64,000 bases of DNA from Phormidesmis priestleyi BC1401 (GTDB taxonomy: Bacteria > Cyanobacteriota > Cyanobacteriia > Leptolyngbyales > Leptolyngbyaceae). Both the position numbers and the translations under genes were made by a program. The notes beneath the pieces are model-generated. The model had not been told where the DNA came from. It did not search any database and worked only from the letters and a program-made list of their open reading frames with translations. Location: contig NZ_LXYR01000023.1 of NCBI RefSeq assembly GCF_001650195.1, positions 1-64,000 of the forward strand. The letters run 5' to 3'. This document shows positions 61,310-64,000 of the stretch, piece after piece (within the stretch, counting starts at the first letter, position 1; each line of letters begins with the position of its first letter).

Positions 61310-63418
61310 TTACACCGTTTGTACTAATGGGTAGGGATGCGTTAACTTATCCAACTGCTGCACCAACAAACTGAGGAATAAACCTACGTCTGTGACGACT
61401 CCGACTGATTCGACTGAGCCGCGATCGCTGAGTTTTGTCACCACCGCCGGGTTGATATCCACACACACCATCTTCACCCCAGCGGGAGTCATATTGCCGA
61501 CTCCGATCGAGTGCAGCATTGATGACAGCATTAAAATCATGTCTGCTCCTTCGATCAAGCGGCTGTAGTCCTCTTGAGCTTTGACGAGATCCATTTGCGT
61601 ATCCGGCAATGGACCGTCATCTCGAATCGAGCCAGCCAGCGAGAACGGTACATTATGCTTCACACATTCATAAATAATGCCACTCGTCAGCACACCACTC
61701 TTCACCGTTTCAGCAATGCTGCCATACCTGCGAACCATGTTGATCACTTTTAGGTGATGGCGATGCCCCCCGCGCACTGATACGCCCCGCTTCATATCCA
61801 CGCCCAGAGACGTGCCCATTAAAGACTGCTCCATGTCGTGAACCGCGATCGCATTTCCGCCCAGTAACGCTTGCACATAGCCTTCTCGAATCAGGTGCGC
61901 CAGATGTTCGCCGCCGCCCGTATGGATCACCACCGGACCCGCCGTTACCACAACCTTGCCCCCACGATCGCGAATCTTCCGCAATTCCCAGGCAATTTGC
62001 TCAACCACCAATTCAACCCGACGCTCACTCGAAACCCCCGCACCCATAAAGCTAAATTCTTGGGTGTTGCGCTGTTCACGCGATTCAGTTTTACGGACGG
62101 TGCGAATGCCATCTACGCCAACGACGACCCGATCGCCCATCTGCACATCTCGGAGTAGCTTACAGACGGGAACGCTTTCCTGACTCGACAGCACGATCGC
62201 GGCATCCATGCGCTGTTTCTGCACTTTGAGCCACTGCCCATTCACCCGTACCTCAGTCGGATAAATGGTGGTCACATAAAAGTCATCGGGCGCAACTCCT
62301 GTCTGAGTTACAGTTTCTAGCTCACAGTCACAAATCTCCTGCGGCGGCGGCAACGCTCCCAGGTCAATCCACTGACTCATAATCGTTTCCATTATCGCGT
62401 GAGAAGGAGCCGTGACTCTCACTTCTGCCGAAGAGGTGCTCTGCCGTTGTTCTCCTAAGTTGAAGTTGAGAACCTGGAAACTGCCGCCTGCTTCGACAAC
62501 GATATCCAATGCCTGATTGATCAATCCTGAATCGAGCAGATGCCCTTCTAATCGCATGACACGACTCTCGATCGCCGCACTCGCATGAAGCTCTACCCGC
62601 ACAGGTTCCGTTACGCGCAGCGTCAAACACTTAGACGCACCGCCTGCCTTAAGGAACTCCGTCAAAGGAGTCTCAATCACCCGAAATCCTGCCTTAGAAA
62701 GCTTTTGTCTCAAGTCATCGCTGGCTTTGTTAAGAATGACAATTTCTTCAATGTTGACCGCATTACATGCAAAGGTCACAGCGTCTGGTTCAGTAATCGG
62801 GATGCGCTTCGCTTCGGGCACCCGCATCTCAATCAGTCGATTTGAGTAAGCATCAAACGCAGGCGGATAGTAGAGCAAATAGCCATTGCTCAGAGGGCAA
62901 AAGCACGTATCAAGGTGATAAAAACGCTCATCCATCAGCCGCAGAGACAGCACTTCAATATCTAACCACTTTGCCAAATAAGGGTGCGAATCTAATTCTG
63001 ATCGAAAGCCATACCCTGCCCAAAGCCAGCGCCCTTCTCGATCGAGCAGTGCATCTCCTGCGCCTTCAAAGGGCAAATCTTTCGGCAGTTCATGCACCGT
63101 GTAGCCATTCTCTTCAAACCACTCTTTAAAGAACGGTTCTTCTCCCTGTCGTTCTTTGTGAAAGAAACGGCTCAAAACGACCGTCTTACCCAACACTAAA
63201 CCCGCATTTGCAGTGAACACCATGTCGGGAATGCCCTTTTGAGGCTTCACCAGGTTCACCGTTGCGTGCTGTTGAATGACATTATGCAGCTTTTGCCATT
63301 GTTCAACCGCCCGATCGCGCGACGACTTGTGGATGTTGCCCTCCATCCAAGGATTGATCACATAATCTACGTCGTAGTGATCGGGGGAACACATGAGAAA
63401 CCGAAGCGAGGAAATCAT
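61310..63418 (-). CDS. agrE: Arginine dihydrolase / ornithine cyclodeaminase (AgrE/ArgZ)
   Basis: This is a 702-residue bifunctional enzyme known in cyanobacteria. The N-terminal domain (about 1-285) turns arginine into ornithine, CO2 and ammonia, and the C-terminal LOR/SDH-like domain (from about 290) converts ornithine to proline. The catalytic Cys264 (GGASKCLTLRV) and His168-x-Asp170 (YHLDTCF) match the dihydrolase site known from ArgZ. Other dihydrolase segments are MVFTANAGLVLGKTVVLSRF and FEGAGDALLD. The C-terminal half has VVVTAGPVVIHTGGGEHLAH and GVSVRGGHRHHLKVI. It returns nitrogen from arginine, including cyanophycin-derived arginine, to central metabolism. An NtcA-type site lies upstream. 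Confidence 0.95.
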   Translation of the reverse strand: MISSLRFLMCSPDHYDVDYVINPWMEGNIHKSSRDRAVEQWQKLHNVIQQHATVNLVKPQKGIPDMVFTANAGLVLGKTVVLSRFFHKERQGEEPFFKEWFEENGYTVHELPKDLPFEGAGDALLDREGRWLWAGYGFRSELDSHPYLAKWLDIEVLSLRLMDERFYHLDTCFCPLSNGYLLYYPPAFDAYSNRLIEMRVPEAKRIPITEPDAVTFACNAVNIEEIVILNKASDDLRQKLSKAGFRVIETPLTEFLKAGGASKCLTLRVTEPVRVELHASAAIESRVMRLEGHLLDSGLINQALDIVVEAGGSFQVLNFNLGEQRQSTSSAEVRVTAPSHAIMETIMSQWIDLGALPPPQEICDCELETVTQTGVAPDDFYVTTIYPTEVRVNGQWLKVQKQRMDAAIVLSSQESVPVCKLLRDVQMGDRVVVGVDGIRTVRKTESREQRNTQEFSFMGAGVSSERRVELVVEQIAWELRKIRDRGGKVVVTAGPVVIHTGGGEHLAHLIREGYVQALLGGNAIAVHDMEQSLMGTSLGVDMKRGVSVRGGHRHHLKVINMVRRYGSIAETVKSGVLTSGIIYECVKHNVPFSLAGSIRDDGPLPDTQMDLVKAQEDYSRLIEGADMILMLSSMLHSIGVGNMTPAGVKMVCVDINPAVVTKLSDRGSVESVGVVTDVGLFLSLLVQQLDKLTHPYPLVQTV

Positions 63419-63490
63419 AGAAAAATTAGGGGGTGTGGGGAATTAGACGCGACAATCAGCCTAGTGAATAAGAAATTCACGCGAGTCGTT

Positions 63491-63504
63491 GTAGTTTCAA
63501 CTAC
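63491..63504 (-). promoter_or_regulatory. NtcA-type palindrome upstream of agrE
   Basis: GTAGTTTCAACTAC is a GTA-N8-TAC palindrome that matches the NtcA consensus exactly and is itself symmetric over 12 of its 14 bases (arms GTAGTT and AACTAC). It lies 73 bp upstream of the agrE ATG. On the minus strand, 20 bases after the site, comes TATTCA, a weak -10 at about the spacing of NtcA-activated promoters (consensus 22 bases to TAN3T). The rest of the 63419-63744 gap holds one further imperfect palindrome (63691-63723). Confidence 0.65.
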
Positions 63505-63690
63505 GAAAGTGTATCTCTGTGGAAAGATCCAAGCCGCGCAACAGACATAGATTATCAAATACTGCCTCTGAATATTCTAGAGAGGAAAGGGGGACGATCG
63601 TGCATCTCTCTCATCAGCAATTCCTGACAATCTAAAATCGTTCCTCTGATAGAGGGATTAATTTTGATTTGAGTTTAAAGTTTTCCCCAG

Positions 63691-63723
63691 GTTCACGTTA
63701 CGTTCAAATCGTAAGTGACGAAC
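63691..63723. promoter_or_regulatory. Imperfect palindrome upstream of the partial exported protein gene
   Basis: GTTCACGTTACG and CGTAAGTGACGAAC face each other across a 7-base centre, with TTACG/CGTAA and TCAC/GTGA blocks displaced by one-base bulges. It lies about 20 bp before ATG 63745, at the place of a promoter or operator. It could also be a leader hairpin. Confidence 0.3.
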
Positions 63724-63744
63724 ATTCGTAGAGAGGAAATTCTT

Positions 63745-64000
63745 ATGGGACAGGTTTTTTTAACTCTGAAACAAGCGCTTCACAAAACTGTTGTGCTGAT
63801 TGGTTTAGTGAGCCTTATCTATACAACTGGGTTCTTTTTAGTCGAGCAGTCTAGCTACGCAGATACTACAAAGCAAGCTGTAAAGGAACAACCCTTCATT
63901 CTTGACGAACCTCAAACCGCAACCAACCGCGAAGCCGCTTATCAGGAAGCGATCGAGGAGGTCAAAAAATCAGATGGCTTAGAGAAAGAATATGAGAAAG
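63745..64000 (+). CDS. Exported protein of unknown function, truncated by window edge
   Basis: The first 85 codons are present; the rest is beyond base 64000. GAGAGG lies about eight bases before ATG 63745. The N-terminus has a basic stretch and one hydrophobic helix (VVLIGLVSLIYTTGFFLVEQ), then a likely cleavage near SSYADT. The mature part begins with a Lys/Glu/Ala-rich helical sequence (NREAAYQEAIEEVKKSDGLE). This layout resembles small lumenal or periplasmic low-temperature/stress-induced proteins of cyanobacteria, but I cannot name a family. The gene is divergent from agrE. Confidence 0.65.
   Translation, partial: MGQVFLTLKQALHKTVVLIGLVSLIYTTGFFLVEQSSYADTTKQAVKEQPFILDEPQTATNREAAYQEAIEEVKKSDGLEKEYEK

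Follow-up and report, generated by a model that had tools for sequence, protein, structure and literature searches.

Does the palindrome in front of agrE in Phormidesmis priestleyi BC1401 serve as a binding site for NtcA, and, if so, would NtcA activate or repress the gene? Cyanobacteria degrade arginine mainly through AgrE/ArgZ, which frees the nitrogen stored in cyanophycin. In the analyzed window (the first 64,000 nucleotides of contig NZ_LXYR01000023.1), the gene occupies positions 61310..63418 on the minus strand and encodes a bifunctional arginine dihydrolase/ornithine cyclodeaminase of 702 aa (NF052231, 1385.9 bits against a cut-off of 1025). In converting arginine to proline, AgrE releases one CO2 and three ammonium (PMC8262935), and under nitrogen limitation ArgZ helps to mobilize cyanophycin (PMC10504260). 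The genome also encodes cyanophycin synthetase (cphA), cyanophycinase (cphB), and NtcA itself (TIGR03697, 387 bits, above the cut-off). The open literature searched yielded nothing on control of agrE/argZ by NtcA, and the Anabaena NtcA ChIP study (PMC3898017) does not name alr4995 in its main text.

Palindromic site upstream of agrE

The palindrome GTAGTTTCAACTAC was found at exactly the position, 63491-63504, where the sequence-only reading had placed it. Two perfect arms of 6 bp flank a centre of 2 bp, giving a 14-base palindrome that reads GTAGTTGAAACTAC on the agrE coding strand (63491..63504, minus strand), and 72 bases separate it from the agrE start codon (ATG at 63418, minus strand). 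A search of Rfam revealed no match in the region 63000-64000, and thus no RNA element was found there.

The full 14-base sequence occurs once in the 5.55-Mb genome, and its core, GTAN8TAC, is frequent: the window contains 4 occurrences, compared with 3.58 +/- 1.97 in shuffled sequences, and the whole genome contains 348. The core is therefore neither rarer nor commoner in the window than expected by chance, and motif density was dropped as evidence. The credibility of the agrE site comes instead from its position and its conservation. The chance density of GTAN8TAC in the window and its abundance in the genome would fit a palindrome that has arisen by chance, or one that serves only the divergently transcribed neighbour of agrE, but the comparative data described below make both explanations very improbable.

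Conservation of the site and its assignment to agrE

Upstream regions of agrE were gathered from family, class, and named genome contigs, yielding 170 distinct sequences, and those of the relatives were aligned. The comparison set of site-bearing regions comprises 10 genomes: 2 Phormidesmis-like genomes (this genus) and 8 of g12, a Leptolyngbya-type genus whose members include FACHB-63, LEGE 13415, and Phormidium tanganyikae. Both GTA and TAC are invariant in all 10 sampled regions of these two genera, at positions from -80 to -94 relative to agrE, whereas the N8 spacer and the flanks vary. The second genome of the genus, G030, has GTAGCTTCAGCTAC at -88; its spacer differs from that of BC1401 at 4 of 8 positions, and the 6-bp palindrome is nevertheless perfect in both. 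In g12, GTAN8TAC is present at -80 to -94 in 8/8 genomes.

To describe this pattern by counts, changes were mapped on the AgrE tree for 61 aligned columns. Columns with zero changes are confined to GTA, TAC, and the AAC that directly follows the site (63488..63490, minus strand; invariant in 10/10 genomes and outside the NtcA core), whereas the remaining 52 columns have a mean of 2.9 changes, with none unchanged. Both triplets are fixed in no register other than that of the site. The Poisson probability of no change in the six GTA and TAC columns is approximately 3e-8, a rough value for columns that were chosen after the site had been seen and that represent two genera only. The spacing between the half-sites points in the same direction: in the last 200 bp of the 170 agrE upstream regions, GTA-N8-TAC occurs 28 times, compared with 15 times for N5 and between 1 and 8 times for any other spacing from N4 to N12, all of these counts being inflated by related sequences. 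The conservation of the half-sites in 10/10 genomes despite the varying N8 argues against a chance palindrome.

The divergent gene, located at 63745-64092 on the plus strand and extending beyond the end of the window, encodes a protein of 115 aa whose N-terminus is hydrophobic. It was found upstream of agrE only in G000 and G030 (this genus) and in G009. The g12 genomes have another upstream neighbour, which differs among members, and the site still stays with agrE; G009, conversely, has kept the divergent 115-aa gene and lacks the site. On this synteny, we reject the 115-aa gene as the one that the site serves and assign the site to agrE, since the upstream neighbour differs between the genera and G009 has the gene without the site.

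Predicted structure of the agrE promoter

Alignment of the site-bearing regions points to a -10 element located exactly 22 bp past the site. The hexamer TTCACT (63463..63468, minus strand) occupies this position in 8/10 genomes, and the broader pattern T-N4-T is found at exactly N22 in 9/10. A deletion of 5 bp in one of the site-bearing regions (L014) has brought TAGGTT, a proper TAN3T hexamer, to N22. The exception is L019, in which an insertion of 11 bp (roughly a turn of the helix) shifts TTCATT to approximately N33, leaving no hexamer at N22. No TTGACA-like -35 box was seen ahead of TTCACT in the aligned upstream regions. If TTCACT is taken as positions -12 to -7, the centre of the site lies at -41.5, because the hexamer begins 22 bp after it, and transcription would start at the A at 63456 (minus strand), a prediction from spacing that gives a leader of 38 nt.

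Other candidates for the -10 element and its surroundings were rejected. The sequence-only reading had pointed to a -10-like TATTCA, which is indeed present 20 bases downstream of the site (63465-63470, minus strand) but is not the conserved hexamer: its first two bases vary, and N20 in other genomes reads CATTCA, CGTTCA, ACTTCA, etc. The agrE -10 is thus probably TTCACT at N22. The inverted repeat GTGAAT-N5-ATTCAC, located between the site and the -10 (63464-63480), is not retained in the same-genus genome. The sequence TACAAC, formed by the right half-site and the following AAC, was also discarded as a sigma-A -10, having no -35 box at 16-18 bp in three genomes inspected by eye.

Farther upstream, a second -10 of the sigma-A type, TAGAAT (63574..63579, minus strand), marks a possible constitutive promoter, P1. 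TANAAT is conserved in this place in 10/10 genomes, and the same type of element occurs in relatives without the site, many of which have a canonical TACAAT or TATAAT -10 nearer the ATG. The site-bearing genomes appear to have two promoters, the NtcA site being accompanied by a TANAAT element that is retained farther upstream.

The leader contains the heptamer GCGTCTA (63444..63450, minus strand), an element common to many cyanobacterial agrE genes. G[CT][AG]TCTA was found in 54 of the 170 leaders, far above the 2.4 obtained for shuffled leaders, and heptamers of this GCRTCTA type mostly lie about 30 bases ahead of the agrE start codon.

Comparison with known NtcA promoters

According to PMC3898017, the canonical NtcA promoter combines GTAN8TAC at approximately -41.5 with a TAN3T -10, and in other cyanobacteria the promoters of glnA, nirA, and urtA are well-established NtcA targets; the activator position at -41.5 is also given in PMC8092223. 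The agrE promoter resembles these class II NtcA-activated promoters in its GTAN8TAC core, in the N22 distance to the -10 (in class II promoters, the -10 follows the site by roughly 20-24 bp), in the computed centre at -41.5, and in the nitrogen-metabolism gene that follows, and the cognate regulator is encoded in the genome. It differs from them in its -10, which is TTCACT in 8/10 genomes, including BC1401, and conforms to TAN3T only in L014 (TAGGTT). The variants TTN3T and TGN3T, at N21-N23, have been proposed as -10 elements (PMC9430850). As TTCACT departs from TAN3T and these variants are proposed, we describe the agrE promoter as one that would work like class II rather than as a strict canonical member.

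Parallels within the genome were searched with the pattern GTAN8TAC-N22-T-N4-T. It matched at 56 places and is overall not enriched; the surroundings of 30 of the 56 matches were read, and most of these lie at unrelated genes. Among the 56, there are matches in the upstream regions of glnA, nirA, urtA, amt, and xdhA. The upstream region of glnA reads GTAGTTTCAGATAC-N22-TACCAT, and its core is identical to the plus-strand reading of the agrE site at 12/14 positions. Five more, weaker CRP/FNR-type matches are encoded in the genome, all below the NtcA cut-off, and one of these regulators might bind the site in place of NtcA; we consider this quite improbable, given that GTAN8TAC is the NtcA consensus (PMC3898017) and that the site at the genome's own glnA is nearly identical.

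Conservation, promoter geometry, in-genome parallels, and gene function together suggest that the palindrome is very probably a genuine NtcA site and that NtcA probably controls agrE, in agreement with the probable NtcA control proposed by the sequence-only reading, and they make agrE a sensible and probable new target of this well-known regulator.

The same reading held that activation and repression could not be told apart from the sequence. Activation is favoured by the exact N22 spacing, the lack of a -35 box, and the computed centre at -41.5, and it suits the part that ArgZ plays in cyanophycin use under nitrogen limitation. The conserved upstream TANAAT (10/10) leaves some room for repression: NtcA bound at the site could block polymerase coming from TAGAAT, or cover TACAAC, a degenerate -10 overlapping with the right half-site. 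The invariant AAC after the site and the use of TACAAT near the same place by relatives without the site would fit repression; AAC may be either an extended contact or a leftover of a TACAAT -10. Some genes are repressed by NtcA through GTAN8TAC downstream of the -35 (PMC3898017), and the agrE locus shares with repressed promoters (gor and rbcL; gifA, gifB, and pirA of Synechocystis) a GTAN8TAC-type site near the promoter of a nitrogen or carbon gene. However, the sites in those promoters overlap or follow the -35 or -10 of the promoter that is blocked, whereas the spacing at agrE suits activation; TACAAC has no conserved -35 at 16-18 bp, and repression would not need an exact N22 distance to a conserved hexamer. 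In Synechocystis, argZ expression reportedly increases early in resuscitation after nitrogen starvation (PMC9952445), an observation that speaks for repression and against simple activation. On balance, repression of agrE by bound NtcA seems unlikely.

We therefore regard a class II NtcA-activated agrE promoter with TTCACT as its -10, and possibly a basal promoter upstream, as the likely arrangement, in which NtcA binding, the transcription start, and the direction of control are predicted. Under this activation model, an NtcA dimer on the palindrome would replace the -35 box; when nitrogen becomes limiting, NtcA carrying 2-oxoglutarate, together with PipX, would bring RNA polymerase to the promoter and raise agrE transcription, and arginine, including that derived from cyanophycin, would be broken down to ammonium and proline. 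The upstream TAGAAT promoter may provide basal expression. Several features weigh against the model: TTCACT, without the A of TAN3T, is a weak -10, the insertion in L019 takes away the N22 hexamer, the site is missing from the sister genera and from other members of the family, the GTAN8TAC-N22-T-N4-T pattern shows no overall enrichment in the genome, and the 10 site-bearing genomes represent two genera and have limited independence. A direct NtcA promoter, if true, would tie the release of cyanophycin nitrogen to the 2-oxoglutarate signal.

Two further candidate sites were noted in the genome. The gene xdhA, encoding the small subunit of xanthine dehydrogenase, has GTAN8TAC-N22-TACAGT 77 bp upstream (L199, C1:147167-147208), which suggests nitrogen control of purine breakdown. 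Between cphB and cphA, 263 bp before cphA (L228), the sequence GTAGATAGATTTAC lacks a fitting hexamer at N22 and is a possible further NtcA site ahead of cyanophycin synthetase.

Distribution of the site among cyanobacteria

On the AgrE tree, G009, this genus, Myxacorys (g14), and g12 form one clade with support of 100/99. Within the clade, the site is present in this genus and in g12 and absent from G009 and Myxacorys, and hence it has been either gained and then lost or gained twice. The sister genera (L004; L005 and L007) lack it, as do the remaining members of the family; NtcA-type control of agrE would thus be lineage-restricted in the family. This patchy distribution offers natural pairs with and without the site.

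A conserved element of related layout was observed in Nostocales and their neighbours. GTAN8KAC followed by TATNNN at N22 or N23 occurs in 17 of the 170 upstream regions, the second half being mostly GAC. The conserved form is GTAGCANNTTTKAC-AGA with TATNNN at N22/23, located at about -60 to -105 from agrE and mostly one base off the NtcA consensus; its carriers include L070, L079, L082, L087, L088, L091, L100, L102, L108, L113, L116, L124, and L126, among others. This element is a possible NtcA site with the same layout.

We tentatively propose, with somewhat more doubt than confidence, that nitrogen control of agrE has been repeatedly gained and lost in cyanobacteria, with a dual promoter (basal TANAAT plus the NtcA site) in some lineages, among them Nostocales with a GTAN8KAC-N22/23-TAT form, as opposed to a plain sigma-A promoter in the sister genera. 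Were this so, the release of nitrogen from cyanophycin would be wired differently across lineages.
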